In this document: one piece after another, positions 20,108-60,065 of the stretch | Position numbering within the stretch: the stretch's first letter is position 1 | Layout: the number at the start of each line of letters is the position of its first letter | From: Valencia hispanica | Taxonomy: Eukaryota; Chordata; Actinopteri; Cyprinodontiformes; Valenciidae | Length of the DNA: 64,000 bases | Assembly: GCA_963556495.2 (NCBI GenBank) | Contig: OY747713.1 | Coordinates: 2,725,821-2,789,820, forward strand | Direction of reading: 5' to 3' | Translations under genes and position numbers: made by a program | Notes under the pieces: model-generated | Databases searched by the model: none | Seen by the model: the letters and a program-made list of their open reading frames with translations, nothing else | What the model was told of the DNA's origin: nothing

Positions 20108-20259
20108 CATGATGTTCATGGAGATGTAATCCTGATGTCCTGTCATCACTTTAGGCTGTGACAGCACTGAGCTCAGCATCTCCTCCATTCAACTCTGCTG
20201 CCTATAAATACTGATGAGGACACCTTCAACATTCATCAGCTGGCTGACTGACTGAACAG
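20108..20259 (+). promoter_or_regulatory. Gene A core promoter and non-coding exon 1
   Basis: The TATA box tataaata is at 20203-20210 and predicts a start near 20233. Exon 1 then ends at 20259 before gtagga. The 100 bp upstream (tgatgttcatggagatg, ttaggctgtgacagcactga, gctcagcatc) are almost identical before all six genes, so the promoter was copied with each unit. Confidence 0.8.
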
Positions 20260-20342
20260 GTAGGACTCCAGCTCCTCAGCATCACTTCTCTGGAACAAAC
20301 CTGATCTGAAAGAGTTAACTCTGGGTTTCTTTCAGTGCAGCC

Positions 20343-22316
20343 ATGAAGGTCCTCGGCGTCCTCGTCCTCCTCTTCCTCCTCTTCCTCACAGGTCAGAAAA
20401 TCTTGGTGCTTTGGGGAAAATCTCAGTAGAAGAAAAAGGCTTTAAACTGTGTTGTCTCTGCAGGTTGTAATGGAGGACACAAAGAACATCCAACCCAAAC
20501 CCAGATACAAATGGTGCAGGATGCTTACTGGGACTATGTCCAGAAGTCAACAATGACCCCTAAAGACTATGTGTTGGACATCAGACATTCCTCTCCAGGA
20601 CAGTATCTGTGGTAAGTGGAAACCTCAAAGCTTTTCCACTCAACATAAAAGCTGGATGAATATTTATAGAGAACATAATTTGTGTTGAATATGGCCCCTT
20701 CTGAAACTATAAAGACCTAAACCTTTGAAGACAAGAACATATTTCAGAAACTGCAGTGTCATTATTTATTAAACAGCAGGTAGAACGAGAAAAGCTAAGT
20801 GTAAAGAATCAGATCCACTCTGTGACCCAACAGCTTTCAGAACCATGTTTGATAGCATCAACACTGTCACATCGATGGTAAAGTCAATCGGTGTTTGTTT
20901 TGCATCCCTCAGCTCCCACTGTCTCTCTGAAATACTTTGTAAGAAGATGGGTGTACTTAGTTTTTTATTTAATTGAATGAGAGGTGTATTTCTTGCAATA
21001 ATTATGTTATAACTACCCTTAAAATGTTTGAAGATTTATTGTAGTTTTCAACTGAGAAAAACTTTAAGCCATCGAATGAAACTTGTAAAGAATAATTTTT
21101 AGAATTTTAAGAATAGAATAACTATTGAATGTCTGAAGTACGGAGGTTTTGATCAGAGTTCTGTTTGTGGTTCTGCAGCTCCCTCATCTCACAGAGCGTC
21201 GACATCATCTACACATTCTTCCGACTTGTGTATGCCCATATAGTTATATGGACCACCAACTTCTACCACAAGATCTGCCATGAGGTAGATCACCTGCACC
21301 ACCATCTGGACCATTTCCTGTACCACTTGGAAGCTGACATACATTACCACGCCAAGGAGCTGGCAGCTAAAATCCGTTGGAAGTTGGAGGATATCAAGCA
21401 GTGTGCAGCTCACTACGTTGAAACACTGGATCCCAAAGGCCTGAAGATAGCCTTGCTGGAGAAGACCAAGGAGCTCCATGAGCATTTGGATCAATGCTTT
21501 GAACACCTGCATACTCACCATCATCATCATGGTGATGACGATCATCATGATCATCACCATCATCACCATCATCACCATCATCATGGTGACAAACATCCTG
21601 GTCACCATCATCATGGCCATCACCATCATGGTCACCATCATCATGGTGACAAACATCCTGGTCACCATCATCATGGCCATCACCATCATGGTCACCATCA
21701 TCATGGTGACAAACATCCTGGTCATCATCATCATGGTCACCATCATCATGGCTATCACCATCATCCTGGTGACAAACATCCTGGTCATCATCATCATGGT
21801 CACCATCATCATGGTCACCATCATCATGGTCACAAACATCCTGGTCACCATCATCATCATGGTCACAAACATCCTGGTCACCATCATCATCATGGTCACA
21901 AACATCCTGGTCACCATCATCATCATGGTCACAAACATCCTGGTCACCATCATCATCATGGTCACAAACATCCTGGTCACTATCACCATCATCATCATGG
22001 TCACAAACATCCTGGTCACCATCACCATCATCATCATGGTCACAAACTTCCTTGCCACCAACATCATAAGCATGAACATGGACCTGACCTGAAGAAGAAA
22101 GTGGATGAAAGAATGGAAACCTTTAAGACCACCTTGCTCTCCCTGGCCCATAACTTTGATATTGAAATTGCCCGCACCACCGAGGAGCTTAATAAGAATA
22201 TTGTTTCACATAGGAGATACCATGACAAGCTGATTAAAAACTCAGAGCACCCAAAGGATGACCTGGAGACTATTTGGCACGACTGGATGTCCTCACTTAA
22301 GAAAAAGACCCACTGA
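20343..22316 (+). CDS. Gene A: histidine-rich apolipoprotein-like secreted protein (type A)
   Basis: Coding exons are 20343-20391, 20464-20611 and 21179-22316 (GT-AG; intron phases 1 and 2), giving 444 residues. Exon 2 encodes a Leu-rich signal peptide (MKVLGVLVLLFLLFLTG). Exon 3 encodes CNGGHKEHP and the apolipoprotein-like AYWDYV. Exon 4 opens with a split Cys codon (residue 66), then two or three amphipathic helices up to LDPKGLKIALLEKTKELHEH. A polyhistidine tract spans residues about 177-366, made of 20-residue GDKHPG(H4)G(H4)G(H4) and 11-residue GHKHPG(H5) units. The C-terminal helical tail (367-444) begins LKKKVDERMETFKTTLLSLA. The exon plan is that of apoA-I/A-IV/E genes, whose products bind lipid. 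The His tract replaces their 22-mer repeats and would be expected to bind Zn, Cu or Ni; this is inference. Confidence 0.88.
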
Positions 22317-22760
22317 ATGGATTCGACAACTGCTCCAACTGAGTTTCATTATGAAATTAAACACATTTTTAAACATATTTTTCCAAGATTTGCTGATGTT
22401 TCTTTAAAGTGTTTGCAGTATTTGTTTATAAAAATAGAAACATGAAATACAGAAACTGTTTGGTCTTTAATTGAAATACTGTGTTTCTTTTAAACTTATT
22501 TAAGGAACTCGAAAACTGCTCGAACTGAGTTTCATTATGAAATTAAACACAGCGTCTTAATTTTAGTTTTAATACTAGAACATGTTGATGGAGATATATT
22601 TGTCCAAGATTTGCAGAAGTTTCTTTAAAATGTCTGTGTACTTCAGGTTTCTATATTGATTAACAAATACTGCAAACTGTCCTGTCTTTAATAGAAATAC
22701 TATATTTCTTTGAAACTTATTTAGCGAGCCATAACCAATTCAATTATGCTCCTTCCTTTT
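22317..22760 (+). repeat. Gene A 3' UTR with an internal tandem duplication
   Basis: An ATTAAA poly-A signal variant lies at 22356-22361. The block containing actgctc(c/g)aactgagttt and ccaagatttgc(t/a)gatg-like text occurs twice, about 185 bp apart, giving two possible cleavage regions. The second copy has ATTAAA near 22543. Confidence 0.6.
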
Positions 22761-24849: not shown

Positions 24850-25098
24850 TTTATTAAACTGTAATAAGTTTGCATCAAAAGAAACAGACTAAAGCCCAGG
24901 CACTGAAAGTATTTGCATTGAAATCATGTATTTTATTGAAAGAATATCATAGACATCTTAATTATTCTCCAGGAAATCATCAGCCTGAGAAAAAAGGGAC
25001 TCAAGATGTCTCCTTTAACATTTTTTGTATTTAAATCAAAAGCAGATGTTCCCTCTATATCTCATGTGTAAAGCCGAACTCTTTAGCGATGACTCCTT

Positions 25099-26751
25099 TC
25101 AGTCGGCCTTTTTCTGACTCTGTGCCCACTCCTCCCACAGATGCCCCAGGTCTTTCTCCAGGTGGTCTGAACCTTTATTCAGCTTCCCCCAACGTCTTCT
25201 TCTATGTGGAACAATTTTCTTATTCAGGTCATAGGTAGTGTCGGTAAGTTTGACATCAAAGCTGTAGACCAGGGCAAACAAGGTGACCTTAAAGTCCTCC
25301 AGACTTTCATACACTTTCTTCTTCAGGTCATGGTGGTCTTTGTGGTCATGGTGATGGTCATGGTGATGGTCATGGTGATGGTCATGGTGGTCTTTGTGGT
25401 CATGGTGATGGTCATGGTGGTCTTTGTGGTCATGGTGGTCTTTGTGGTCATGGTGATGGTCATGGTGATGGTCATGGTGGTCTTTGTGGTCATGGTGATG
25501 GTCATGGTGGTCTTTGTGGTCATGGTGGTCTTTGTGGTCATGGTGATGGTCATGGTGGTCTTTGTGGTCATGGTGGTCTTTGTGGTCATGGTGATGATGA
25601 AGACGGTGACCAAAAAGTTTGTACCAAAGATGTCGATGACAATGATGATGATGGCCATGATGGTGATGGTGGCCATCATGGTGACCATCATGGTCACCAT
25701 GATGATGATGGTGAGTATGATGGGGACCATGATGGTGATGGTGAGTATGCAGATGTTCAAAGCCCTTGTCCAAATGCTCATGCAGCTCCTGGGTCTTCTC
25801 CAGCAAGGCAATCTTCAGGCCTTTGGGGTCCAGGGCTTCAATGTATTTGGCGGCGCACTCCTTCAGCTCCTCTAGCTTGGAACGAGTTTGAGCTGCCAGC
25901 TCCTTGGCATGGTAATGTTCGTCATCTTCCAGGTAGATCAGAAAATGGTCCAGATGGTGGTGAAGCTGATCTACCTCGTGGGAGATCTTGCTGTAGAAGT
26001 CCTTGATCCACCAAACAATATGAGTGTACACGTTATGGAAGAAGCTGTAGATGATGTCGATGCTCTCTGCGATGAGGGAGCTGCAGGGACACAGACAGAA
26101 ACCTGATCAACACCTTGTTTTTAGAGTTAAATGAAACATTGATTGAGTTAACTTTATCACATATCTTGGTTTATGTTATTTCATCCTTCTTTTGAAACTG
26201 AGCCTAAATATAAAAATGTATTCCTTGTTGTATTTAGGCACCTAAAAGGGAGAAATCTGCTTTACAGGATAAACTGTGTCTGTCCAGAGAGAAGGAGAAC
26301 TTGTAGCTTTTAGGAATCACAACATCCATCCTGCAGGCATGTTGAGGTTAGTTAGAACTATACATGTGCCTCAGACCTGGAAGTTAAAGAGAAGCTTCCA
26401 TGGTTTAATAAGAGACAATCTCTGTGTGAATCTCAGTCAATATTCATCCAGCTTTTATGTTGAGTGGAAAAGCTTTGAGGTTTCCACTTACCACAGATAC
26501 TGTCCTGGAGAGGAATGTCTGATGTCCAACACATAGTCTTTAGGGGTCATTGTTGACTTATGGACATAGTCCCAGTAAGCATCTTGTGCTATTTTGATCT
26601 GGATTTGTGATGGATGTTCTTTGTGTCCTCCATTACAACCTGCAGAGACAACACAGTTTAAAGCATTTTTCTTCTACTGAGATTTTCCCCAAAGCATCAA
26701 GATTTTCTGACCTGTGAGGAAGACGAGGACGAGGACGCCGAGGACCTTCAT
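25099..26751 (-). CDS. Gene B: histidine-rich apolipoprotein-like protein (type B)
   Basis: Coding exons on the minus strand are 26751-26712, 26639-26492 and 26080-25099, giving 389 residues. The signal peptide MKVLGVLVLVFLTG is followed by CNGGHKEHP and the AYWDYV helix. Exon 4 starts with a split Cys codon (63) and SLIAESIDIIYSFF. The helical part ends near residue 173. The His tract (about 174-314) starts with H5-GPHHTH5, includes the non-His island CHRHLWYKLFGH, then repeats DHKDHHDHHH and DHKDHH. The tail is LKKKVYESLEDFKVTLFALV, then VPHRRRR and a C-terminal amphipathic helix ending KKAD. It is divergent from gene C, with start sites 2.7 kb apart. The poly-A signal is at 24937-24932 (minus). 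A lipid-associated metal-binding role is inferred. Confidence 0.88.
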
Positions 26752-26834
26752 GGCTGCACTGAAAGAAACCCAGAGTTAACTCTTTCGGATCAGGTTTGTT
26801 CCAGAGAAGTGATGCTGAGGAGCTGGAGTCCTAC

Positions 26835-26980
26835 CTGTTCAGTCAGTCAGCCAGCTGATGAATGTTGAAGGTGTCCTCATCAGTATTTATAGGCAGCAGA
26901 GTTGAATGGAAGAGATGCTGAGCTCAGTGCTGTCACAGCCTAAAGTAATGACAGGACATCAGGATTACATCTCCATGAAC
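26835..26980 (-). promoter_or_regulatory. Gene B core promoter and exon 1
   Basis: The TATA box (tataaata on minus) is at 26891-26884. Exon 1 is about 26861-26835, followed by gtagga. The upstream block matches that of gene A up to about 26985. Confidence 0.8.
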
Positions 26981-26985
26981 ATCAT

Positions 26986-27468
26986 GTTCAGCTTTCAGGT
27001 GATATGAACTTGCTGATGGAACCTGTTGAAGACATTTGTCTCATTCTCCTTGGAAGCCACAGTGTCAGGTTTTTATTTCTCTCATCAAGTCTGTGAAGCA
27101 TTCACACTTTCACTGTATGGTTTTCTGTTGTTTTCTGTTCTAAACTGCTTTCAATTGAATTGGACTGTGACAATAAAAATAAAAAAATTGTCAAAGCACC
27201 GTTTGTAAAAACAAACCTTCCAACTGAATGATGAAAACAATAAGTTCAGATCATGTATCGAGCAATATCCAAGCAGAGACTTGGTGCATCATTTTTAAAA
27301 GGTCTCATTGAAACGTCTGCAACATGATTTACAATTAGCCTGATTTTCTTCTAGTCATGAAAGAGTGTTTGTGTAAAGCTTTTGTTATACGGACCGTAAA
27401 TAACCAGTGTTCAAACTTAACAAAAGTACATTTATCTGATTTGACTTTTATTGGGTTTTTTGGCTTAG
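26986..27468. other. Spacer between divergent genes B and C, left part
   Basis: Non-coding; mirrored at about 57436-57830. It contains caataaaaataaaaaaat near 27170. No gene. Confidence 0.5.
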
Positions 27469-28622
27469 CAGGGTCCTGGAGGGTGCGTGGGAGTTCGCCC
27501 AACCGGTCTACATGTGTTTTGTGGACTTGGAGAAGGCGTTCGACCGTGTCCCTCTGGGAGCCATATGGGGGGTACTCTGGGAGTATGGGGTACCGGGCCC
27601 CTTGATACGGGCTGTTAGGTCCCTGTACAACCGGTGCCGGAGTTTGGCTCGCATTGCCGGCAGTAAGTCAGGCTTGTTTCCGGTGAGAGTTGGACTCCGC
27701 CAAGGTTGCCCTTTGTCACCGATCCTGTTCATAACTTTTATGGACAGGATTTCTAGGCGCAGCCAAGGCGTTGAGGGGATCCGTTTTGGTGGCCTCAGGA
27801 TCGGCTCTCTGCTTTTTGCAGATGATGTTGTCCTGTTGGCTTCATCGGAACGTGATCTACAGCTTTCGCTGGAGCGGTTCGCAGCAGAGTGTGAAGCGGC
27901 TTGGATGAGAATCAGCACCTCCAAATCCGAGGCCATGGTCTGGGTGGGGTGCCTTCTCTGGGTCGGGGATGGGGTCCTTCCCCAAGTGGAGGAGTTTAAG
28001 TATCTGGGGGTCTTGTTCACGAATGAGGAAAAAAATGGAGAGGGAGATCAATAAGCAGATTGGTAGGGCGTCTGCAGTTATGCGGGCGCTTTACCGGTCT
28101 GTCGTGGTGAAGAGAGAGCTGAGCCGGAAGGCGAGGCTTTCGATTTACCGGTCGATCTACGTTCCTACCCTCATCTATGGTCACGAACTCTGGGTGGTGA
28201 CCGAAAGAACGAGATCACGGATACAAGCGGCTGAAATGAGTTTCCTCCGCAGAGTATCTGGGCTCTCCCTTAGAGATGGGGTGAGAAGCTCAGTCATCCG
28301 GAGGGGGCTCAGAGTAGAGCCGCTGCTACTCCACATCGAGAGGAGTCAGTTGAGGTGGCTCGGGCATCTGGTCAGGATGCCTCCTGGACGCCTCCCTGGT
28401 GAGGTGTTTCAGGCACGTCTCACCAGGAGGAGGCCCAAGGGAAGACCCAGGACACGCTGGAGGGACTATGTTTCTCGGCTGGCCTGGGAACGTCTTGGGA
28501 TTCCTCCCGAGGAGCTGGAAAAAGTGGCTGGGGAGAGGGAAGTCTGGGTCTCTTTGCTTTTAAGCTGCTGCCCCCGCGACCCGACCCCCGATAAGCGGAA
28601 GAAAATGAATGAATGAATGAAT
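27469..28622 (+). pseudogene. RTE/Rex3-like LINE, 5'-truncated, frameshifted
   Basis: The first frame (27512-28054) has the reverse transcriptase text FVDLEKAFDRVP, LRQGCPLSPILF and the catalytic FADDVVLLA. After a frame change near 28030, the second frame (to 28616) gives the C-terminal domain (LIYGHELWVV, RWLGHLVRMP, GRPRTRWRDYV). The tail is (GAAT)n at 28607-28622. This tail type and protein text suit the Rex3/RTE group. The 5' half is missing. Confidence 0.75.
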
Positions 28623-28660
28623 GGCTTTTTATCTGCTTCGGGTGTCCTGAGTTGCTTTTT

Positions 28661-28718
28661 AGAGAAATTTAGGAAAAACAAACAGTACTGTGACTTTTTG
28701 TTTTTCCTAAATTTCTCT
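28661..28718. repeat. 22-bp-stem hairpin after the RTE tail
   Basis: agagaaatttaggaaaaaca(aa) at 28661-28682 is the exact complement of 28697-28718, with a 14-nt loop (cagtactgtgactt). The same hairpin is in the right arm near 56437-56496. Confidence 0.85.
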
Positions 28719-28892
28719 AGAAACAACTAATCTTGACTTAATTTTACATCATCTGGACATGTAAAATACATAATGCTCTTCACCAAACCATATTTGGTGG
28801 GGAACATTTCGTAAAAATTGTTCAAGCGTGTATACATGTACGCAATTGTTTTAATCAACAGTTATGAACAATCATATTTTAATAGATAATCT

Positions 28893-29029
28893 ATATATTA
28901 TATTATACTATATTATATTATACTATATTATATTATATTATATTATATTATATTATATTATATTATATTATATTATATTATATTATATTATATTATATTA
29001 TATTATATTATATTATATTATATTATATT
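28893..29029. repeat. (TATTA)n satellite
   Basis: About 27 near-perfect pentamers. The mirrored copy at 56048-56262 is longer, so the tract has changed length since the arms separated. Confidence 0.95.
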
Positions 29030-29440
29030 TATGGATGGTTTATAATTAAAAGACAATGACTGATTTATTGTTAGTGATTAAATGTATTTGGTTAAGCTAG
29101 TCATTAAAAAAAGCTTGATTAAAGTTAGCTCTCAACAAATTCATATGGTTAGCTTTAAGTAATGTTTTGTAAAGCTTAGCTATTAAAATATTGTTCTTCC
29201 AGATAATATTATGAAAACTATTTGATATTATTTAAATATTGTAAGCTGTGAAAAACTTGTTTCAGGTTAGACATTAACGTTTGTGGTTAGAAAGTGTTTG
29301 TCAGGAATAAAACTTAAATAAGCTGCACCTGAAAACTAGAACAATGACTCTTCACTGTCTTTTTTACTGATGATCCACAAAGTCTTGCATGGATTTGCTC
29401 AACAGGTTCAATCAGCAAGTTCATATCACCTGAAAGCTGA
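29030..29440. other. Upstream spacer of gene C
   Basis: Non-coding, shared with the upstream regions of D (38080-38520) and E (55650-56045). No gene is seen. Confidence 0.5.
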
Positions 29441-29443
29441 ACA

Positions 29444-29593
29444 TGATGTTCATGGAGATGTAATCCTGATGTCCTGTCATCACTTTAGGCTGTGACAGCA
29501 CTGAGCTCAGCATCTCCTCCATTCAACTCTGCTACCTATAAATACTGATGAGGACACCTTCAACATTCATCAGCTGGCTGACTGACTGAACAG
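29444..29593 (+). promoter_or_regulatory. Gene C core promoter and exon 1
   Basis: The TATA box tataaata is at 29537-29544. Exon 1 is about 29567-29593. The upstream 95 bp match the other copies. Confidence 0.8.
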
Positions 29594-29676
29594 GTAGGAC
29601 TCCAGCTCCTCAGCATCACATCTCTGGAACAAACCTGATCTGAAAGAGTTAACTCTGGGTTTCTTTCAGTGCAGCC

Positions 29677-32024
29677 ATGAAGGTCCTCGGCGTCCTCGTC
29701 CTCATCTTCCTCACAGGTCAGAAAATCTTGGTGCTTTGGGGAAAATCTCAGTAGAAGAAAAATGCTTTAAACTGTGTTGTCTCTGCAGGTTGTAATGGAG
29801 GACACAAAGAACATCCATCACAAACCCAGATCAAAATAGCACAAGATGCTTACTGGGACTATGTCCAGAAGTCAACAATGACCCCAAAAGACTATGTGTT
29901 GGACATCAGACATTCCTCTCCAGGACAGTATCTGTGGTAAGTGGAAACCTCAAAGCTTTTCCACTCAACATAAAAGCTGGATGAAGCACGGTGGCGCAGC
30001 TGGTAGAGCAGCTCACCTCACAGCTAGAAGGTCCTGGGTTCAATTACCGCCAGGGACGCTGTGGGTGCTGAGGGTGTGTTTGTTACCCCGCATCATCGGG
30101 ACCCACACCCTGGGTGGGGTTGGTGAAAGGGCCTTTCTGTGTGGAGTTTGCATGTTCTCCCCATGTTCCCTTGAGCAGCTAATGTGAGCTACTCCCACAA
30201 AAACATGCACTAGTCCTGGGGCTGTATACTGCCTCCTCCTGGCCGGCTGGGGCGCCTGAAGGGTTGGGGAGGATCTGGCTGGAATAACGTGATCCTTCCA
30301 CGCACTACGTCCAGGCAGGGAAACCCCGCCCCATCATGTAAAACGAAGGCCCTGCTCACTGCCCAAGCATGAAGGAGGCTTGGGTTTCAGTGCGGGGCCC
30401 TCCCGGGACTGGCAGAGGGAGAGTGGAACCCCAGGACTGGAACTAGGTAGGAGCACTGGGTGATTAATAATGGGAGAAAACCGTGGGATAAAAAAATCTC
30501 AAAAAAAAAAAAGCTGGATGATGGTACGCTACGGATGTTGTGGTTTCTATAAGCTACAAGTTCTCCTTCTCTCTGGACAGACAGTTTATGTTGAATAAAG
30601 CAGATTTCTCCCTTTTAGGTGCCTAAATACAAGGAATAAATTTTTATATTTAGGCTCAGTTTCAAAAGAAGGATGAAATAACATAAACCAAGATATTTCA
30701 TTGAACTCTAAAAACAAGGTGTTGATCAGGTTTCTGTCTGTGTCCCTGCAGCTCCCTCATTGCAGAAAGCATCGACATCATCTACAGCTTCTTCCATAAC
30801 GTGTACACTCATATTGTTTGGTGGATCAAGGACTTCTACAGCAAGATCTCCCACGAGGTAGATCAGCTTCACCACCATCTGCACCATTTTCTGATCTACC
30901 TGGAAGATGACGAACATTACTATGCCAAGGAGCTGGCAGCTCAAACTCGTTCCAAGCTAGAGGAGCTGAAGGAGTGCGCCGCCAAATACATTGAAGCCCT
31001 GGACCCCAAAGGCCTGAAGATTGCCTTGCTGGAGAAGACCCAGGAGCTGCATGAGCATTTGGACAAGGGCTTTGAACATCTGCATACTCACCATCACCAT
31101 CATGGTCCCCATCATACTCACCATCATCATCATGGTGACCATGATGGTCACCATGATGGCCACCATCACCATCATCATTGTCATCGACATCTTTGGTACA
31201 AACTTTTTGGTCACCAACATCATCATCACAAAGACCACCATGACCATCACCATGATCACAAAGGCCACCATGACCACAAAGACCACCATGACCACCACCA
31301 TGACCTCAAAGACCACCATGACCACCATCACGACCACAAAGACCACCATGACCACCATCACTATGATCACAAAGACCACCATGACCACCATCACTATGAT
31401 CACAAAGACCACCATGACCATCACCATGACCACAAAGACCACCATGACCACCATCACGACCACAAAGACCACCATGACCACAAAGACCACCATGACCACC
31501 ACCATGACCTCAAAGACCACCATGACCACCATCACGACCACAAAGACCACCATGACCACCATCACTATGATCACAAAGACCACCATGACCACCATCACTA
31601 TGATCACAAAGACCACCATGACCATCACCATGACCACAAAGACCACCATGACCACCATCACGACCACAAAGACCACCATGACCACCATCACTATGATCAC
31701 AAAGACAACCATGACCATCACCATGACCACAAAGACGACCATCATCATCATCATCACCACCATGACCACAAAGACCACCATGACCTGAAGAAGAAGGTGT
31801 ATAAAAGTCTGGAGGACTTTAAGGTCACCTTGTTCTCCCTGGTCTACAGCTTTGATGTCAAACTTACCCACACTACCTATGACCTGAATAAGAAAATTGT
31901 TCCACATAGAAGAAGACGTCGGGGGAAGCTGAATAAAGGTTCAGACCACCTGGAGAAAGACCTGGGGCATCTGTGGGAGGAGTGGGCACAGAGTCAGAAA
32001 AAGACTGAATGGAGTCATCGATGA
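29677..32024 (+). CDS. Gene C: histidine-rich apolipoprotein-like protein (type B, longest)
   Basis: Coding exons 29677-29716, 29789-29936 and 30752-32024 give 486 residues. The signal peptide is MKVLGVLVLIFLTG, the N-terminus CNGGHKEHPSQTQIKIAQDA. Helical residues run to about 173. The His tract (about 174-407) is the longest of the six and includes the HLWYKLFGH island and units DHKDHHDHHH, some with Tyr (HHHYDHKDHH) or Leu (DLKDHH). The tail LKKKVYKSLEDFKVTLFSLV carries RRRRR. A 4-nt deletion removes the usual KKAD-stop and extends the end to KKTEWSHR, as in gene E. Intron 3 holds a SINE. AATAAA is at 32169-32174. It forms a divergent pair with gene B. Function is inferred as for gene B. 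Confidence 0.88.
29985..30508 (+). mobile_element. SINE in intron 3 of gene C
   Basis: A tRNA-like head (ggtggcgcagctggtagagc as box A region, gggttcaattacc as box B) is followed by a 400-bp body and an A-rich end. The 13-bp direct repeat aaaagctggatga lies on both sides (29972-29984 and 30509-30521). The same insertion is in gene E, so it predates the arm duplication. Confidence 0.8.
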
Positions 32025-32199
32025 TGAGTTCAGTTTTACACCTGAGATATAGAGGCAACATCTGCTTTTGATTTAAATACAAAAAATGTTAAAGGAGACA
32101 TCTTGAGTCCCTTTTTTCTCAGGCTGATGATTTCCTGGGGAATAATTAAGATGTCTATGATATTTATCAATAAAATACATGATTTCAGTGCAAATACTT

Positions 32200-34243: not shown

Positions 34244-34247
34244 CTAG

Positions 34248-34726: not shown

Positions 34727-35475
<749 letters not shown>

Positions 35476-37950: not shown

Positions 37951-37960
37951 ATTTTAGATG

Positions 37961-38529: not shown

Positions 38530-38687
38530 GCTGAACAAGATGTTCATGGAGATCTAATCCTGATGTCCTGTCATTACTTTAGGCTGTGACAGCACTGAGC
38601 TCAGCATCTCCTCCATTCAACTCTGCTGCCTATAAATACTGATGAGGACACCTTCAACATTCATCAGCTGGCTGACTGACTGAACAG
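38530..38687 (+). promoter_or_regulatory. Gene D core promoter and exon 1
   Basis: The TATA box tataaata is at 38631-38638. Exon 1 is about 38661-38687. The upstream block is shared with the other genes, with small changes (gagatctaat instead of gagatgtaat). Confidence 0.8.
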
Positions 38688-48780: not shown

Positions 48781-49107
48781 TATAAAGTGGAGGACTATAG
48801 CAAAAGCTGTACTGCTCCGCTTGTGAAAGTAAATCTGTTGGGCTTCTACTTGGTACTCAGACACCAATTCTGAGCTCCACACTGTCCAACAGGACACGAG
48901 GAAAAGAAAGGAGAAAAAAAAGAAAAGAAAAGAAAAAAAACTTAGAGCACCTGGAGGATGACCTGGAGAGTATTTGGCACGATTGGATTTTCTTAAGTAA
49001 GAATGGATTTGACAACTGATCCCACTGAGTGTGAATAAAAAAACAACGTCGTATTTTTTGTTTTAACACACATGTTGATGAAGACATATTTAAGTCGATA
49101 TGACTTG

Positions 49108-49654
49108 CTGACGTTTCCCTCTCCCCAGCCACTTGGGCCAGCTCCTCGGGAGGAATCCCAAGGCGTCCGCAGGCCAGCCAAGAAACATAGTCCCCCAAGC
49201 GTGGGTCTTTGGGCCTCCTCCAGGTGGGAAATGCCTGGAACACCTCACCAGAGAGGAGTCCATCCTGACCAGATGCCCGAGCCACCTCAACTGACTCCTC
49301 TCGATGTGGAGGAGCAGCGGCTCTACTCTGAGCCCCCTCCGGATGACTGAGCTTCTAACCCCATCTCTAAGGGAGAGCCCAGACACTCTGTGGAGGAAAC
49401 TCATTTCAGCCAGTTGTATCCGTGATCTCGTTCTTTTGGCCACCACCCAGAGTTCATGACCATAGATGAGGGAACGTAGATCGACCGTTAAATCGAAAGC
49501 CTCGTCTTTCGGCTCAGCTCCTTCTTCACCACGACAGACCGATACAGCGCCCGCATCACTGCAGACGTGGCCCCAATCTGTCTATCGATCTCCCGTTCCA
49601 TTTTTCCCTCATTCGTGAACAAGACCCCCAGATACTTAAACTCCTCCACTTGCA
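49108..49654 (-). pseudogene. RTE/Rex3-like LINE fragment, inner end of right arm
   Basis: The minus frame 49446-49090 reads MSFLHRVSGLSLRDGVRSSV and RWLGHLVRM; it lacks the last part and tail. It mirrors 35476-36098. Confidence 0.75.
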
Positions 49655-50168
49655 TTTGACTCTTTTGAATTGCTAGCCACCCAGATAAATGAGCCTAACA
49701 AAGCTTTATTTCTAAGTTTATATAAACCCCCAAACCTTAACTCTAAATTCTTTAACTATTTCAATGACCTTCTTTCTGTAATATGTAGTGATTATGACCA
49801 ATTAATCATTGTGGGGGATTTTAACATCCATACCGACAAACCCCTGGATAGACAAGCAAAACATTAAGTGACACTCTTCACAACTTCGGCCTGACCCAGC
49901 ATGTCAAACAACCAACACACAATAAAGGACACACTCTGGACTTAATTATCTGCAAAGGTTTAACTATATCTGACATCTCGGTAATTGATATTGCATTATC
50001 TGACCATTTCTGAAAGCCTCAGATCAGCTGAAACACTCAGTTTATTTAAACCCAGGTCAAAGACCCACCTGTTCACAGCTGCCTTTGATTAGGTTTTTAT
50101 TCTAAGTTTTAAATCTGCACTGCTTCCTTTAAGATATGTTTTTATTTATTTATATATGTGTGTGTGTT

Positions 50169-50221
<53 letters not shown>

Positions 50222-50370
50222 TCTTTTGGTTCATTTTAAATCATGGTTTTTATTCCTGCACTTTTGCTTTTTCTGCACCCTGCTGTAATGCTTTTGATGT
50301 TTTATGTAAAGCACTTTTTAATTGTCTTGTAACATGAATTGTGCTATACAAATAAACTTGCCAGTCCATC
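49655..50370 (+). pseudogene. L2-type LINE endonuclease-plus-tail fragment, right arm
   Basis: The frame 49670-49867 reads LFLSLYKPPNLNSKFFNYFN and IVGDFNIHTDKPLD. The text then continues LTQHVKQPTHNKGHTLDLII to DHF near 50010 and jumps to a 3' tail with (AT)n at 50170-50217. Mirror of 34727-35475. Confidence 0.65.
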
Positions 50371-50847
50371 GTAAAAACAAATCCCCCCAAAAAATCAGGG
50401 CGCTGGGCGACTGCCCCTGTAAGCTCTTTCTAATGTATCCCAGAGTCTAACCGTAACTGAATAAAACTTTTATTGATAGTTAACCTTCCATAAATTTCAG
50501 TGGGAAACATAAACACTTTGTTTTCAGGTTAGCAGACACAGCTAGGTTAGCTAGAAGGCTAATTTAGCCAAAACCGTTTTATGCCCAACATTAACTACAT
50601 TTTATCGATGAATTTGAACCAAATTGTTTAATGGCAAAGCTTAGACTGTTACTAATTTTTCATCCTTACCATTTATGAAGAATATTTTAACGTCCTTTTT
50701 TGGGTAAACACTGTATCCTGGCTATCCTTGGTTCTTTGACTTGCTAACATAGCAATTTAGGTTTCACTTGAAAAATAGTTATTTTAAATTAAACAATAGG
50801 CTGTATTATTAAGCAACCCATTTTAAAATTGTATTTTCAATGGCTAG
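50371..50847. other. Spacer, right arm
   Basis: Mirror of 34248-34726. Non-coding, nothing else seen. Confidence 0.45.
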
Positions 50848-51304
50848 TGTAATGGAAAATTAAAGTATCTCAGGGTTTCCATAATAAAGAAGACTTGAGT
50901 CCCAGAAGGCGTTTAAGTATTTTATTCAAACATGTCTGGCCAGACCATGGAGGGGACAGAGTTACTCGTGCATCACCCTGACCAACCTTTCTAACTAACC
51001 GCTTAAATAGTATTCAGCAATCATTGTTTGTCTCTGTAGACGTCTTCTCCAACCTTCACGCCCCGCCTCTGGACAGCTGCTCCATGCGAGTCTCATATCA
51101 ACGCATAAAGCAGCTCATCCGAAGGCCAGACTGTTATCTTACTGCCCCGGCGTCTGTCTCTCTGGTGACCTGACACATATATCTTTATCATAACATTAAG
51201 CTGAAACAAAAAGCTTGCCCCTAACCTTGTCCTCTGCCTTAGATGCATTCACTAAACAGAGAATATACACTTAATTCCTAATTACATAACAATTTTCCAC
51301 CACA
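50848..51304 (-). mobile_element. Solo LTR, 457 bp, right arm
   Basis: Reverse-complement partner of 33787-34243, same length and same CTAG duplication (50844-50847, 51305-51308). It was present before the arms were duplicated. Confidence 0.85.
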
Positions 51305-51308
51305 CTAG

Positions 51309-52890
51309 CCTTGTATGTTTTTCATCTAACCCTATTTGAAGTACATTAGACTTGTTATTAAAATGTAAGAAACCAAACTTTGGCTGGGACTTTTGTGTTT
51401 AGGAGCTATTTATTAAGTGTTTACCCAGTATATCATAAATTACAGATTTGTCTTGTAGGGTTTTAATACATGCATAACATGACACAAAATTGTATTCACA
51501 GAAAATGTATTTAATTTTAATTTTGCACATGATTTAAGGTAATTCTGTCATGTTTTTTTTAAACGATCAGACTTACATGCAGAAAACCACTCAGAAGAAC
51601 AATGAATAATTAAAAGGTTTATTTAAACAACGATGAATATTGTGCAGGTTCTGGTCCAGGGGAAATCCAACGGCTCGAGGGAATCAGAAAGACTGAAGGG
51701 AAGCAGAGGATATATGAGAAATGAGAATGATTAGATATTGTGAGAATGTCTTACTGTAGATGTCGAGGTTTTCCATCAGGAAGGGGGAGTGAATTGGAGG
51801 CTGTTGCTCTGTTTGGTGATCCAGGAAGCGACGACAGATTGGTGGTATGGGGACGCGAAGTGGGAGTAGACGTTGGAACGTTGGAGGGCGGACAGGTTGG
51901 TCTAGGAGGTGGAGAAAGGTAAGTGAAGCTCGAAGGATGCTAGTATGAAGATTATGATACAGGAGTTATCTCACAAAGGTTAGTAGACACGAGGAGATCA
52001 ACACTGAACATGACGGAACAGGTCTAGGAAGTTGCACTGAGGAAAACCTTGGAACAGTGTCACAGGAAAATATTAATCTCAAGGCAAGCAGCAAGTTAAC
52101 ATTAAAACTCAAGGAACTCAGAGGGCTCAGAGTTACTGCAAAGGTTAACACTCAGGAACTGAGTAACTGTTAACAAATGTTTGGTTTAAGATTTTTCTGA
52201 TTTATTCAACCAGTAAAGGAAAGTTGGTAAAGTTAAACATTGAAAACTGGGTAAATTAATAACCACTCATGATAATGTATTAATTAAACATTTTTTTAAT
52301 TATCTGTTAGCCATAAAACTACTAGATACGGATTGGCTATTAAGAAAAAGCTTCTTTGTGGAAGATTTTGGTTTCCTTAGCCTAGAAAAGAGCAGAGCTA
52401 AGGTTAGCCATTAATGGGTATCTAAAGTGAGCCAGAAGACAATGTTAGATCAGCATTAACTATTAAAACAGTCATCAAAACCATTTAGGTGAAAATGTAG
52501 TTTGGGATTGATGGAGAAGATGTGTGGCGATGGAAACACGGTAAGATGTTAACCAGCTAACTAACTAACCTGGTTACCGTGTGTGTTTCTGCAGAGAGTT
52601 TTGATGACCTGACCAGATGAACCATAAAGTATTAATAGTTTCCAAATTTCATTGAATTAGACGCAGGGGAAATGTAGGCTTTTGTTAACAAAATTATCTG
52701 TTTGGGAGGTTTGACGACATGTTTCACCATTTGGAACTGGAAAGCTAAATACTGAAGATATTCTTTATATGCAATTTGTGTGAATTTAACAAATGCATGT
52801 TTCCCTAAGAAAGAGCAATGATTGAAGCCGAGCGTTTTATTAAACTGTAAAAGTCTGCAGCAAAAGAAACAGATTAAATGCCAGGCACTG
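51309..52890. other. Downstream spacer of gene E
   Basis: Mirror of 32200-33786. The possible LTR remnant corresponds to about 51545-52155. No gene. Confidence 0.45.
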
Positions 52891-53067
52891 AAAGTATTTG
52901 CACTGAAATCATGTATTTTATTCAAAGAATATCATAGACATCTTAATTTTTCTCCAGGAGATCATCAGCCTGAGAAAAAAGGGACTCAAGATGTCTCCTT
53001 TAACATTTTTAGCATTTAAATCAAAAGCAGATGTTGCCTCTATATCTCAGGTGTAAAACTGAACTCA

Positions 53068-55399
53068 TCATCGATGACTCCATTCAGTCTTTTTCTGACT
53101 CTGTGCCCACTCCTCCCACAGATGCCCCAGGTCTTTCTCCAGGTGGTCTGAACCTTTATTTAGCTTCCCCCGACGTCTTCTTCTATGTGGAACAATTTTC
53201 TTATTCAGGTCATAGGTAGTGTGGGTAAGTTTGACATCAAAGCTGTAGACCAGGGCGAACAAGGTGACCTTAAAGTCCTCCAGACTTTTATACACCTTCT
53301 TCTTCAGGTCATGGTGGTCTTTGTGGTCATGGTGATGGTCATGGTGGTCTTTGTGGTCATGATGATGGTCATGGTGGTCTTTGTGGTCATGATGATGGTC
53401 ATGGTGGTCTTTGTGGTCATGGTGATGGTCTTTGTGGTCATGGTGGTCTTTGTGGTCATGGTAATGGTCATGGTGGTCTTTGTGGTCATGATGGTGGTCA
53501 TGGTGGTCTTTGTGGTCATGGTGATGGTCATGGTGGTCTTTGTGATCATAGTGATGGTGGTCATGTTGGTCTTTGTGGTCGTGATGGTGGTCATGGTGGT
53601 CTTTGAGGTCATGGTGGTAGTCATGGTGGTCTTTGTGGTCATGGTGATGGTCATGGTGGTCTTTGTGATCATAGTGATGGTGGTCATGGTGGTCTTTGTG
53701 GTCGTGATGGTGGTCATGGTGGTCTTTGAGGTCATGGTGGTGGTCATGGTGGTCTTTGTGGTCATGGTGGTCTTTGTGATCATGGTGATGGTCATGGTGA
53801 TGGTCATGGTGGTCTTTGTGGTGATGATGTTGGTGACCAAAAAGTTTGTACCAAAGATGTCGATGACAATGATGATGATGATGGTGGCCATCATGGTGAC
53901 CATCATGGTCACCATGATGATGATGGTGAGTATGATGGGGACCATGATGGTGATGGTGAGTATGCAGATGTTCAAAGCCCTTGTCCAAATGCTCATGCAG
54001 CTCCTGGGTCTTCTCCAGCAAGGCAATCTTCAGGCCTTTGGGGTCCAGGGCTTCAATGTATTTGGCGGCGCACTCCTTCAGCTCCTCTAGCTTGGAACGA
54101 GTTTGAGCTGCCAGCTCCTTGGCATGGTAATGTTCGTCATCTTCCAGGTAGATCAGAAAATGGTCCAGATGGTGGTGAAGCTGATCTACCTCGTGGGAGA
54201 TCTTGCTGTAGAAGTCCTTGATCCACCAAACAATATGAGTGTACACGTTATGGAAGAAGCTGTAGATGATGTCGATGCTCTCTGCGATGAGGGAGCTGCA
54301 GGGACACAGACAGAAACCTGATCAACACCTTGTTTTTAGAGTTCAATGAAACATTGATTGAGTTAACTTTATCACATATCTTGGTTGATGTTATTTCATC
54401 CTTCTTTTGAAACTGAGCCTAAATATAGAAATTAATTCCTTGTTGTATTTAGGCACCTAAAAGGGAGAAATCTGCTTTACAGGATAAACTGTGTCTGTCC
54501 AGAGAGAAGGAGAACTTGTAGCTTATAGAAACCACAACATCCGTAGCGTACCATCATCCAGCTTTTTTTTTTTTTGAGATTTTTTTATCCCACGGTTATC
54601 TCCCATTATTAATCACCCAGTGCTCCTACCTAGTTCCAGTCCTGGGGTTCCACTCTCCCTCTGCCAGTCCCGGGAGAGCCCCGCACTGAAACCCAAGCCT
54701 CCTTCATGCTTGGGCAGTGAGCAGGGCCTTCGTTTTACATGATGGGGCGGGATTTCCCTGGCTGGACGTAGCGCGTGGAAGGATCATGTTATTCCAGCCA
54801 GATCCTCCCCAACCCTTCAGGCGCCCCGGCCGGCCAAGAGGAGGCAGTATACAGCCCCAGGACTAGTGCATGTTTTTGTGGGAGTAGCTCACTTTAGCTG
54901 CTCAAGGGAACACGGGGAGAAAATGCAAACTCCACACAGAAAGGCCCTTTCGCCAACCCCACCCAGGGTGTGGGTCCCGATGATGCGGGGTAACAAACAC
55001 ACCCTCAGCACCCACAGCGTCCCCCGCGGTAATTGAACCCAGGACCTTCTAGCTGTGAGGTGAGCCGCTCTACCAGCTGCGCCACCGTGCTTCATCCAGC
55101 TTTTATGTTGAGTGGAAAAGCTTTGAGGTTTCCACTTACCACAGATACTGTCCTGGAGAGGAATGTCTGATGTCCAACACATAGTCTTTAGGGGTCATTG
55201 TTGACTTATGGACATAGTCCCAGTAAGCATCTTGTGCTATTTTGATCTGGGTTTGTGATGGATGTTCTTTGTGTCCTCCATTACAACCTGCAGAGACAAC
55301 ACAGTTTAAAGCCTTTTTCTTCTACTGAGATTTTCCCCGAAGCATCAAGATTTTCTGACCTGTGAGGAAGATGAGGACGAGGACGCCGAGGACCTTCAT
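53068..55399 (-). CDS. Gene E: histidine-rich apolipoprotein-like protein (type B)
   Basis: Coding exons on minus are 55399-55360, 55287-55140 and 54295-53068, giving 471 residues. The signal peptide is MKVLGVLVLIFLTG, the N-terminus CNGGHKEHPSQTQIKIAQDA. The helical part ends near residue 173; the His tract covers about 174-392 with the HLWYKLFGH island, DHKDHHDHHH units and Tyr- or Leu-containing variants. The tail matches gene C including RRRRR and the frameshifted end KKTEWSHR. Intron 3 contains the same SINE as gene C. The poly-A signal is at 52922-52917. E is the arm partner of C but differs in the number and order of His units. It is divergent from F. Confidence 0.88.
54567..55091 (-). 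mobile_element. SINE in intron 3 of gene E
   Basis: Reverse-complement counterpart of the gene C SINE, with the 13-bp direct repeats at 54554-54566 and 55092-55104. Confidence 0.8.
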
Positions 55400-55482
55400 G
55401 GCTGCACTGAAAGAAACCCAGAGTTAACTCTTTCAGATCAGGTTTGTTCCAGAGAAGTGATGCTGAGGAGCTGGAGTCCTAC

Positions 55483-55630
55483 CTGTTCAGTCAGTCAGCC
55501 AGCTGATGAATGTTGAAGGTGTCCTCATCAGTATTTATAGGCAGCAGAGTTGAATGGAGGAGATGCTGAGCTCAGTGCTGTCACAGCCTAAAGTGATGAC
55601 AGGACATCAGGATTACATCTCCATGAACAT
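55483..55630 (-). promoter_or_regulatory. Gene E core promoter and exon 1
   Basis: The TATA box (minus tataaata) is at 55539-55532. Exon 1 is about 55509-55483. The conserved upstream block continues to about 55635. Confidence 0.8.
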
Positions 55631-55639
55631 CATGTTCAG

Positions 55640-56045
55640 CTTTCAGGTGATATGAACTTGCTGATTGAACCTGTTGAGCAAATCCATGCAAGACTTTGTG
55701 GATCATCAGTAAAAAAGACAGTGAAGAGTCATTGTTCTAGTTTTCAGGTGCAGCTTATTTAAGTTTTATTCCTGACAAACACTTTCTAACCACAAACGTT
55801 AATATCTAACCTGAAACAAGTTTTTCACAGCTTACAATATTTAAATAATATCAAATAGTTTTCATAATATTATCTGGAAGAACAATATTTTAATAGCTAA
55901 GCTTTACAAAACATTACTTAAAGCTAACCATATGAATTTGTTGAGAGCTAACTTTAATCAAGCTTTTTTTAATGACTAGCTTAACCAAATACAGTTAATC
56001 ACTAACAATAAATCAGTCATTGTCTTTTAATTATAAACCATCCAT
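55640..56045. other. Upstream spacer of gene E
   Basis: Mirror of 29030-29440. Non-coding. Confidence 0.5.
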
Positions 56046-56047
56046 AA

Positions 56048-56262
56048 ATATAATATAATATAATATAATATAATATAATATAATATAATATAATATAATA
56101 TAATATAATATAATATAATATAATATAATATAATATAATATAATATAATATAATATAATATAATATAATATAATATAATATAATATAATATAATATAATA
56201 TAGTATAATATAGTATAATATAATATAATATAGTATAATATAATATAGTATAATATAATATA
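56048..56262. repeat. (TAATA)n satellite, right arm
   Basis: About 43 pentamers with a few tagta variants toward the right end. Longer than the left-arm tract. Confidence 0.95.
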
Positions 56263-56542
56263 TAGATTATCTATTAAAATATGATTGTTCATAACTGTTG
56301 ATTAAAACAATTGCGTACATGTATACACGCTTGAACAATTTTTAAGAAATGTTCCCCACCAAATATGGTTTGGTGAAGAGCATTATGTATTTTTCATGTC
56401 CAGATGATGTCAAATTAAGTCAAGATTAGTTGTTTCTAGAGAAATTTAGGAAAACAAAAAGTCACAGTACTGTTTGTTTTTCCTAAATTTCTCTAAAAAG
56501 CAACTCAGGACACCCGAAGCAGATAAAAAGCCATTCATTCAT

Positions 56543-57435
56543 TTATTCATTTTCTTCCGCTTATCGGGGGTCGGGTTGCGGGGGCAGCAGCTTAAAAGCA
56601 AAGAGACCCAGACTTCCCTCTCCCCAGCCACTTGTTCCAGCTCCTCGGGAGGAACCCCAAGGCGTTCCCAGGCCAGCCGAGAAACATAGTCCCTCCAGCG
56701 TGTCCTGGGTCTTCCTCTGGGCCTCCTCCCGGTGAGACGTGCCCGAAACACCTCACCAGGGAGGCGTCCAGGAGGCATCCTGACCAGATGCCCGAGCCAC
56801 CTCAACTGACTCCTCTCGATGTGGAGGAGCAGCGGCTCTACTCTGAGCCCCCTCCGGATGACTGAGCTTCTAACCCTATCTCTAAGGGAGAGCCCAGACA
56901 CTCTGCGGAGGAAACTCATTTCAGCCGCTTGTATCCGTGATCTCGTTCTTTCGGTCACCACCCAGAGTTCGTGACCATAGATGAGGGTAGGAACGTAGAT
57001 CGACCGGTAAATCGAGAGCTTCGCCTTCCGGCTCAGCTCTCTCTTCACCATGACAGACCGGTTCAGCGCCAGCATAACTGCAGATGCCCCACCAATCCGT
57101 CTATCGATCTCCCGCTCCATTTTTTCCCTCATTCGTGAACAAGACCCCCAGATACTTAAACTCCTCCACTTGGGGAAGGACCCCGACCCAGAGAAGCCAC
57201 CCCACCCAGACCATGGCCTCGGATTTGGAGGTGCTGATTCTCATCCCAGCCGCTTCACACTCGGCTGCGAACCGCTCCAGCGAAAGCTGTAGATGACGCT
57301 CCGATGAAGCCAACAGGACCACATCATCTGCAAAAAGCAGAGACCCGATCCTGAGGCCACCAAAACGGATCCCCTCAACACCTTGGCTGCGCCTAGAAAC
57401 CCGTCCATAAAAGTTATGAACAGGATCGGTGCTTT
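56543..57435 (-). pseudogene. RTE/Rex3-like LINE, right arm
   Basis: The minus frame 57132-56539 gives the C-terminal domain (ALNRSVMVKRELSRKAKLSI, LIYGHELWVV, RWLGHLVRMP). The RT part is reduced to a scrap (FITFMDG, VLLASSERHLQLSLERF). Relative to the left copy about 315 bp, equivalent to 27401-27718, are missing, including the AFDRVP and RQGCPLS motifs. Confidence 0.75.
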
Positions 57436-57835
57436 TACGGTCCGCATAACAAAAGCTTTACACAAACACTCTTTCATGACTAGAAGAAAATCAGGCTAAT
57501 TGTAAATCATGTTGCAGACGTTCCAATAAGACCTTTTAAAAATGATGCACCAAGTCTCTGCTTGGATATTGCTGGATACATGATCTGAACTTATTGTTTT
57601 CATCATTCAGTTGGAAGGTTTGTTTTTACAAACGGTGCTTTGACAATTTTTTTTATTTTATTGTCACAGTCCAATTCAATTGAAAGCAGTTTAGAACAGA
57701 AAACAACAGAAAACCATACAGTGAAAGTGTGAATGCTTCACAGACTTGATGAGAGAAATAAAAACCTGACACTGTGGCTTCCAAGGAGAATGAGACAAAT
57801 GTCTTCAACGGGTTCCATCAGCAAGTTCATATCAC
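57436..57835. other. Spacer between divergent genes E and F, right part
   Basis: Mirror of 26990-27440. Non-coding. Confidence 0.5.
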
Positions 57836-57844
57836 CTGAAAGCT

Positions 57845-57999
57845 GAACATGATGTTCATGGAGATGTAATCCTGATGTCCTGTCATCACTTTAGGCTGTG
57901 ACAGCACTGAGCTCAGCATCTCCTCCATTCAACTCTGCTACCTATAAATACTGATGAGGACACCTTCAACATTCATCAGCTGGCTGACTGACTGAACAG
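57845..57999 (+). promoter_or_regulatory. Gene F core promoter and exon 1
   Basis: The TATA box tataaata is at 57943-57950. Exon 1 is about 57973-57999, followed by gtagga. Confidence 0.8.
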
Positions 58000-58082
58000 G
58001 TAGGACTCCACCTCCTCAGCATCACTTCTCTGGAACAAACCTGATCTGAAAGAGTTAATTCTGGGTTTCTTTCAGTGCAGCC

Positions 58083-59825
58083 ATGAAGGTCCTCGGCGTC
58101 CTCGTCCTCATCTTCCTCACAGGTCAGAAAATCTTGATGCTTTGGGGAAAATCTCAGTAGAAGAAAAAGGCTTTAAACTGTGTTGTCTCTGCAGGTTGTA
58201 ATGGAGGACACAAAGAACATCCATCACAAATCCAGATCAAAATAGCACAAGATGCTTACTGGGACTATGTCCATAAGTCAACAATGACCCCTAAAGACTA
58301 TGTGTTGGACATCAGACATTCCTCTCCAGGACAGTATCTGTGGTAAGTGGAAACCTCAAAGCTTTTCCACTCAACATAAAAGCTGGATGAATATTGACTG
58401 AGATTCACACAGAGATTGTCTCTTATTAAACCATGGAAGCTTCTCTTTAACTTCCAGGTCTGAGGCACATGTATAGTTCTAACTAACCTCAACATGCCTG
58501 CAGGATGGATGTTGTGATTCCTAGAAGCTACAAGTTCTCCTTCTCTCTGGACAGACACAGTTTATCCTGTAAAGCAGATTTCTCTCTTTTAGGTGCCTAA
58601 ATACAACAAGGAATTAATTTCTATATTTAGGCTCAGTTTCAAAAGAAGGATGAAATAACATAAACCAAGATATGTGATAAAGTTAACTCAATCAATGTTT
58701 CATTGAACTCTAAAAACAAGGTGTTGATCAGGTTTCTGTCTGTGTCCCTGCAGCTCCCTCATCGCAGAGAGCATCGACATCATCTACAGCTTCTTCCATA
58801 GCGTGTACACTCATATTGTTTGGTGGATCAAGGACTTCTACAGCAAGATCTCCCACGAGGTAGATCAGCTTCACCACCATCTGGACCATTTTCTGATCTA
58901 CCTGGAAGATGACGTACATTACTATGCCAAGGAGCTGGCAGCTCAAACTCGTTCCAAGCTAGAGGAGCTGAAGGAGTGCGCCGCCAAATACATTGAAGCC
59001 CTGGACCCCAAAGGCCTGAAGATTGCCTTGCTGGAGAAGACCCAGGAGCTGCATGAGCATTTGGACAAGGGCTTTGAACATCTGCATACTCACCATCACC
59101 ATCATGGTCCCCATCATACTCACCATCATCATCATGGTGACCATGATGGTCACCATGATGGCCACCATCACCATCATGGCCATCATCATCATTGTCATCG
59201 ACATCTTTGGTACAAACTTTTTGGTCACCGTCATCATCATCACCATGACCACAAAGACCACCATGACCATCACCATGACCACAAAGACCACCATGACCAT
59301 CACCATGACCATCACCATGACCACAAAGACCACCATGACCATCACCATGACCACAAAGACCACCATGACCATCACCATGACCACAAAGACCACCATGACC
59401 ATCACCATGACCACAAAGACCACCATGACCATCACCATGACCATCACCATGACCCCAAAGACCACCATGACCATCACCATGACCATCACCATGACCACAA
59501 AGACCACCGTGACCATCACCATGATCATCACCATGACCACAAAGACCGCCATCACCATCACCATGACCATCACCATGACCACAAAGACCACCATGACCTG
59601 AAGAAGAAGGTGTATGAAAGTCTGGAGGACTTTAAAGTCACCTTGTTCGCCCTGGTCTACAGCTTTGATGTCAAACTTACCCACACTATCTATGACCTGA
59701 ATAAGAAAATTGTTCCACATAGAAGAAGACGTCGGGGGAAGCTGAATAAAGGTTCAGACCACCTGGAGAAAGACCTGGGGCATCTGTGGGAGGAGTGGGC
59801 ACAGAGTCAGAAAAAGGCAGACTGA
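58083..59825 (+). CDS. Gene F: histidine-rich apolipoprotein-like protein (type B)
   Basis: Coding exons 58083-58122, 58195-58342 and 58754-59825 give 419 residues. The signal peptide is MKVLGVLVLIFLTG; exon 3 has WDYVHKS, where genes A to D have WDYVQKS (gene E also has His). The helical part ends near 173; the His tract (about 174-344) has the HLWYKLFGH island and very regular DHKDHHDHHH units with occasional extra DHHH. The tail LKKKVYESLEDFKVTLFALV, RRRRR, KKAD is intact. AATAAA is at 59986-59991. F is the mirror partner of gene B, lacking the C/E C-terminal deletion and the intron SINE. Confidence 0.88.
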
Positions 59826-60065
59826 ATGGAGTCATCGATGATGAGTTCAGTTTTACACCTGAGATATAGAGGCAACATCTGCTTTTGATTTAAATACAAA
59901 AAATGTTAAAGGAGACATCTTGAGTCCCTTTTTTCTCAGGCTGATGATTTCCTGGAGAATAATTAAGATGTCTATGATATTTATCAATAAAATACATGAT
60001 TTCAGTGCAAATACTTTCAGTGCCTGGCATTTAATCTGTTTCTTTTGATGCAAACTTTTACAGTT

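Follow-up and report, generated by a model that had tools for sequence, protein, structure and literature searches.

The exchangeable apolipoproteins rank among the best-studied plasma proteins, and to our knowledge none of them is known to carry a metal- or acid-responsive tail. Excerpts of a survey of apolipoprotein evolution (PMC6854765) give four exons for most family members and three for ApoA-IV, and the word histidine occurs 0 times in the survey's main text as excerpted. His repeats that serve as a Zn and pH sensor are described for HRG (PMC5372734, in excerpt). Here we describe a cluster of at least seven genes in the cyprinodontiform fish Valencia hispanica (assembly GCA_963556495.2; genome 1.29 Gb, 29 contigs), whose predicted products join a diverged apoA-IV-like helical body to a giant histidine tract. 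The window, by which we mean the whole 64,000-nucleotide stretch analysed, spans positions 2,725,821-2,789,820 of contig 16 (OY747713.1). On balance we favour the reading that these proteins would be a secreted apolipoprotein scaffold with a Zn/Cu-binding, pH-responsive tail, encoded by a tandem-duplicated branch of the apoA-IV kind in which the tract grew within a loop.

Six of the genes (g1-g6) lie in the window, each with a signal-peptide-like exon 2 followed by a short exon 3 (AYWDYV...) and, last, a long exon 4, joined by GT/AG splice sites and read by an uninterrupted frame from ATG to stop in 6/6. The product of exon 4 begins with about 110 helical residues, continues with the histidine tract and ends in a further 75-79 residues. 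A TATA box (CCTATAAATA) stands upstream of every one of the six, and all of them share an identical 53-base block where the presumed non-coding exon 1 lies, exon 1 and the signal peptide having been read by eye from the genomic sequence. An AATAAA or ATTAAA signal follows within 500 bases past the stop in five of the six genes, g4 having none in that interval. An earlier note, made from the sequence alone, had described six intact genes with a common promoter and this exon layout, all of which we recovered at the expected place. Its count of six holds for the window, but a seventh open gene (g7), recovered from six flank loci of the window together with tblastn, lies just outside it. The coding introns are of phases 1 and 2 in all seven genes, identical to those of the neighbouring apoA-IV gene. 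An Rfam scan of the window returned no match at gathering scores.

The closest relationship of the encoded proteins is with teleost apoA-IV. An hhalign comparison of a family profile (7 sequences, including two proteins of the window with the tract cut out) with a profile of 20 fish apoA-IV proteins gave a probability of 99.96 and an E-value of 5.7e-39 over 254 columns, running from the signal peptide to the C-terminus with the histidine insert as the large gap; the site of this insert is a loop of about ten residues in the neighbouring apoA-IV. Because apoA-IV aligns end to end with the insert as a gap, the tract is best read as an insertion at one loop of a retained, strongly diverged apoA-IV scaffold whose helical body was kept. 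The earlier proposal that the tract had replaced the 22-mer lipid-binding repeats was rejected, since the apoA-IV body is present in order and aligned end to end with the tract at one loop.

Single-sequence searches place the proteins in the same family. In phmmer searches the N-terminal 176 residues of g1 matched human apoA-IV (9hx4, E 4.6e-9; 3s84, E 3.3e-4). The note had set an apolipoprotein match with the tract masked as a test, and its idea withstands it: g1 and g6 gave E-values of 2.8e-7 and 5.9e-7 against the Pfam Apolipoprotein family, but at 30-31 bits, far below the cut-off of 90. More generally, the PF01442 gathering score was missed by three window constructs (16.4-30.9 bits) and by 4 of 16 relatives (23.5-39.8 bits), and the N-terminal part of g4 alone scored E 0.0077. 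The membership in the apoA-I/A-IV/E kind that the note had proposed is nonetheless borne out, with teleost apoA-IV nearest by phmmer, hhalign, tree and intron phases. Coding intron phases, a signal-type N-terminus, the exon-3 block, the order of helices and a position next to apoA-IV and an apoE-like gene are all common to the cluster genes and teleost apoA-IV (PF01442), whereas about 30% identity, the His tract in a loop, His-rich N-terminal helices, new cysteines and a Pfam score under the cut-off set the cluster genes apart.

At least 16 database relatives of this branch (P0001-P0014, P0030, P0079) were found by protein searches, in Goodea, Crenichthys, Girardinichthys, Characodon, Fundulus, Poecilia, Xiphophorus and Cyprinodon, all of them Cyprinodontoidei among the matches listed. 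Taxonomic placement was checked for the four goodeid genera and for the suborder with its families; the Fundulus, Poecilia, Xiphophorus and Cyprinodon relatives we take to be fundulids, poeciliids and pupfish. These searches were word-based, and one gave the best 120 of 172 hits, which did not include some known relatives (P0005, P0006 and P0008, for example). Restriction to the Cyprinodontoidei holds so far among the matches listed and is not proof of absence elsewhere. His content is 5.7-27.6% in the 16 relatives, against at most 2.9% in the other 113 of 129 collected proteins, and in five of these relatives a stretch of 40 residues contains 20 or more His, compared with 14 in the guppy and 7-8 in the Cyprinodon proteins. 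The note knew of no described family of this build. Some members do exist in databases, under misleading names that include 'histidine-rich glycoprotein-like' and, for a Fundulus relative at NCBI, 'histidine-rich protein PFHRP-II-like'. No title or abstract describing the family was found among the open-access matches listed. Plasmodium histidine-rich protein II is an Ala/His repeat protein of the malaria parasite and resembles the cluster proteins in its high His content. The PFHRP-II-like name looks like a composition-driven annotation artefact. Type IV antifreeze protein, which is apolipoprotein-derived, was considered and dropped for want of any supporting feature.

A tree of 54 rows (the 7 cluster genes, 11 of the 16 relatives, the neighbouring apoA-IV and 35 hand-picked fish apoA-IV proteins; relatives P0001, P0010, P0011, P0012 and P0030 were left out) places the histidine family on one side of a 100/100 branch, apart from the 36 apoA-IV rows. 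In this midpoint-rooted tree, which has no apoA-I or apoE outgroup and in which the Cyprinodon rows are long-branched, the family is a clade of its own, set off by a long branch (0.66 + 0.78). The N-terminal part of exon 4 falls into two types, A (g1, g4, g7) and B (g2, g3, g5, g6), 79-81% identical to each other and 98.5-100% identical within a type. Between types, dN/dS in this part was 0.30-0.34 in all 12 A/B pairs (Nei-Gojobori; the pairs are not independent), and the N-terminal helices are under purifying selection. In the C-terminal part dN/dS was 0.74 for g1 versus g6, the sole computed value among the six g1 pairs, and ranged from 0 to 1.07 in the 15 pairs without g1, with few changes. 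The tree, the dN/dS of about 0.3 and the relatives in four fish families suggest that this family of the Cyprinodontoidei is old and under selection.

By its hydrophobic moment the N-terminal part of exon 4 is predicted to form amphipathic helices: the moment lies 3.2-4.4 standard deviations above shuffled sequences in all seven proteins (2.9 in the neighbouring apoA-IV). In the C-terminal part the figure was 3.2 for g1, 0.6-1.5 for the remaining six proteins and 3.3 for the neighbour. These N-terminal helices contain 11-15 His among 111 residues, compared with 0 of 112 in the neighbouring apoA-IV, and each precursor has 4-6 cysteines, the neighbour having a single one, located in the signal region. 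NxS/T sites are absent from all seven proteins. AlphaFold2, given g1 exon 4 with 26 relatives, predicted long helices on either side of the tract (mean pLDDT 67.4, pTM 0.52); ten-residue pLDDT means were 80-97 over residues 11-110, 83-97 over residues 301-340, 60-74 over the last 40 and 43-52 in the tract, which is probably disordered. Comparison of the fold of this model was uninformative, with helical-bundle plant inhibitors outranking apoA-IV, and the lack of nearer folds was given no weight.

The tracts lie in-frame within exon 4 and measure 193, 141, 234, 139, 219 and 171 codons in g1-g6, with 121, 83, 133, 81, 123 and 103 His, respectively; that of g7 reaches 461 codons with 286 His, giving a protein with 309 His in 713 residues. 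The repeat types differ, GHHHHGDKHPG in g1 and DHKDHHDHHH in g2 for example, and the length of the main units (15, 30, 33, 48 bases and so on) is a whole number of codons. An orphan array of the same kind stands beyond g6 (Table 1) and forms, together with its adjoining C-terminal scrap, the remnant of another gene copy; it provides a natural comparison for the coding tracts. Because alternative frames through the repeats are likewise open, as is the orphan array, an open frame is weak evidence alone, and we rejected it as proof of coding. The presumed coding status rests instead on the helical parts to either side of the tract, on the splice sites and on the database relatives. With a His pKa of 6.45, the value for HRG in PMC5372734 (in excerpt), simple pKa arithmetic gives a net charge of -59 to +12 at pH 7.4 and of +52 to +139 at pH 6.0, while that of the neighbouring apoA-IV stays at -9 to -11 at pH 7.4, 6.5 and 5.5 by the same arithmetic.

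A recent inverted duplication at least about 11 kb long, with arms about 95% identical, holds g2 and g3 in one arm and g5 and g6 in the other. Because an A-type N-terminal part is joined to a B-like C-terminal part (93-95% to g6) in g4 and g7, these two genes look like chimeras joined inside the repeat. Over the 5' 545 bases all gene pairs are 92-99% alike, which points to gene conversion across the 5' ends. Reverse-transcriptase-like fragments, identified by eye, sit within the duplicated arms or close to where they end, and may have had a part in the inverted duplication. Elsewhere in the window we saw, by eye from translations, a 1044-codon frame resembling a LINE-type endonuclease/reverse transcriptase, flanked by two direct repeats of 300 bases that are 100% identical, as well as pieces of a second LINE-type-like element.

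Table 1. The histidine gene cluster and surrounding features in window numbering (genes from ATG to stop; aa, amino acids).
Feature	Coordinates	Strand	Exons 2; 3; 4	Remarks
g1, A-type	20343-22316	+	20343-20391; 20464-20611; 21179-22316	444 aa
g2, B-type	26751-25099	-	26751-26712; 26639-26492; 26080-25099	389 aa
g3, B-type	29677-32024	+	29677-29716; 29789-29936; 30752-32024	486 aa
g4, A-type N-terminal helices, B-type C-terminal helix	38771-40908	+	38771-38810; 38883-39030; 39933-40908	387 aa
g5, B-type	55399-53068	-	55399-55360; 55287-55140; 54295-53068	471 aa
g6, B-type	58083-59825	+	58083-58122; 58195-58342; 58754-59825	419 aa
g7, seventh open gene	67021-70720	-	70720-70681; 70608-70461; 68974-67021	713 aa; just past window end
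53-base block, g1 copy	20208-20260	+		TATA box just upstream
53-base block	26834-26886	-		
53-base block	29542-29594	+		
53-base block	38636-38688	+		
53-base block	55482-55534	-		
53-base block	57948-58000	+		
Orphan histidine array	62842-64071 (window part 62842-64000)	+		without N-terminal exons
C-terminal scrap after orphan array	64081-64185	+		35 residues
Second C-terminal scrap	71624-71852			broken frames
Inverted duplication, left arm	24900-36030			holds g2, g3; outer boundary 24900 is the query start only
Inverted duplication, right arm	49115-60023			holds g5, g6
Reverse-transcriptase-like fragment	27440-28616			by eye
Reverse-transcriptase-like fragment	35548-36081			by eye
Reverse-transcriptase-like fragment	49090-49581			by eye
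Reverse-transcriptase-like fragment	56539-57457			by eye
LINE-type-like frame	6634-9768	+		1044 codons; by eye
Direct repeat	4145-4444			300 bases
Direct repeat	10252-10551			300 bases
Second LINE-type-like element	44516-47238			pieces; by eye
ApoE-like gene, profile match	83447-86674			two pieces about 2.7 kb apart

The order of genes on the contig is apoA-IV, the seven histidine genes and an apoE-like gene. A profile search located an ordinary apolipoprotein gene 2.3-2.9 kb before the window start (PF01442, 138 bits); it matches human apoA-IV with a phmmer E-value of 1.3e-33, is 91% identical to a Girardinichthys protein named apolipoprotein A-IV-like and, by these matches, is assigned to apoA-IV. 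A second set of apolipoprotein profile matches starts about 19 kb beyond the window end. The first 97 exon-4 residues of this downstream gene have apoE structures as their best match (E 1.4e-17), narrowly ahead of apoA-IV (E 1.5e-16), and on that comparison we class it as apoE-like; its profile match is split, which suggests an extra intron or insertion in the last exon. Other apolipoprotein genes lie in the same genome on contig 12 (12236060-12254685) and contig 1 (46997143), and one of these genes is 89-98% identical to the Fundulus diaphanus apoA-IV relative P0111. Tandem arrays on contig 1 (1525459-1547387), and also on contigs 12 and 13, match the apolipoprotein profile in six-frame translation with many in-frame stops and are probably repeats, not apolipoproteins.

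The strongest rival to a functional tail, although we regard it as unlikely, is that the genes are functional apoA-IV paralogs whose tract is a neutral, slippage-driven loop expansion with no metal or pH role. Such a history would fit a tract that ranges from none in Cyprinodon to 461 residues in g7 with a sequence type that varies from gene to gene, and because the repeat units are whole codons, growth in length tends to stay in frame automatically, the orphan array being open too. It accords less well with a His share that stays at 56-63% in all seven tracts although the repeat units differ, or with the codons that specify it: both CAT (584) and CAC (346) are in use, and Tyr codons number only 18 versus 930 for His in the seven tracts (1.9% of His plus Tyr codons) compared with 35 versus 212 (14.2%) in the orphan array, a contrast for which the Fisher value is only indicative since repeat copying makes the codons non-independent. 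The enrichment of His in the N-terminal helices, outside the tract, likewise argues against neutrality.

A role in host defence or clotting control, as an acid- or metal-activated antimicrobial or glycosaminoglycan binder that has lost lipid binding, strikes us as distinctly improbable; the large computed positive charge upon acidification, the strong divergence from apoA-IV on the long branch of the tree and the occurrence of such activities in HRG (PMC5372734, in excerpt) all speak for it, whereas N-terminal helices that remain amphipathic and under purifying selection speak against it. Hardly to be credited is the view that most copies are decaying pseudogenes, open only through recent duplication and gene conversion. 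The inverted duplication, the homogenised 5' ends, and the orphan array and broken C-terminal scrap would agree with decay, but all seven genes are open, dN/dS between the two diverged types is about 0.3, and four fish families contain relatives.

For the metal- and acid-responsive apolipoprotein that we favour, the closest analogue would be HRG, and the composition of the tracts fits a Zn-binding, pH-responsive region of the HRG kind. Long tandem His repeats on a secreted-type protein are common to the cluster proteins and the His-rich region of HRG and kininogen, and the GHHHHG/KHPG of g1 resembles the GHHPH kind. In contrast, human HRG has 11 GHHPH-like motifs (PMC5372734, in excerpt), compared with tracts of 139-461 residues here, and carries cystatin domains rather than an apolipoprotein body; the seven cluster proteins, moreover, have no NxS/T site. 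No Pfam match to the cystatin family was obtained with three constructs (maximum E 10, with filters that remove most matches beyond about 0.1). By these comparisons the relation to HRG would be one of convergence and not of membership. Zn and pH sensing as a principle has precedent because the His repeats of HRG do so, while an apolipoprotein body in this role is without precedent.

The sequence data establish the anatomy of the genes, their homology and linkage, their occurrence in several fish families and the purifying selection on the N-terminal helices. That the proteins are secreted, associate with lipid, bind metal and switch with pH, and where they are expressed, we infer, and we envisage the following course. 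A teleost apoA-IV branch would have been duplicated in tandem between apoA-IV and the apoE-like gene, and a His/Asp/Lys or His/Gly/Pro tandem repeat would have grown at one loop into the present tract. Like apoA-IV, the helical body might settle on the surface of lipoproteins or membranes, holding a flexible tail that would bind Zn or Cu at neutral pH and turn strongly positive below about pH 6.5. Metal or acid could then switch the binding of the tail to anionic partners such as glycosaminoglycans, membranes or microbes, in the manner of HRG. Tentatively, and with some doubt, we further propose that killifish, livebearers and goodeids may possess a second, apolipoprotein-based HRG-like system, i.e. 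a lipoprotein-borne sensor of Zn/Cu and pH present in at least 7 copies, whose tracts reach 461 residues.

The scaffold family is already known, and what is new is a diverged apoA-IV branch carrying a giant histidine insert, together with a correction of the misleading database names of its relatives. Nature offers the same scaffold with no, short or giant tract, and it is accessible in Fundulus heteroclitus, Xiphophorus and the guppy. If true, the proposal would add a convergent histidine-rich plasma-type protein built on a non-cystatin body, and such lineage-specific convergence with HRG would be new for apolipoproteins and would connect the transport of lipids with the handling of metals or with binding triggered by acid.

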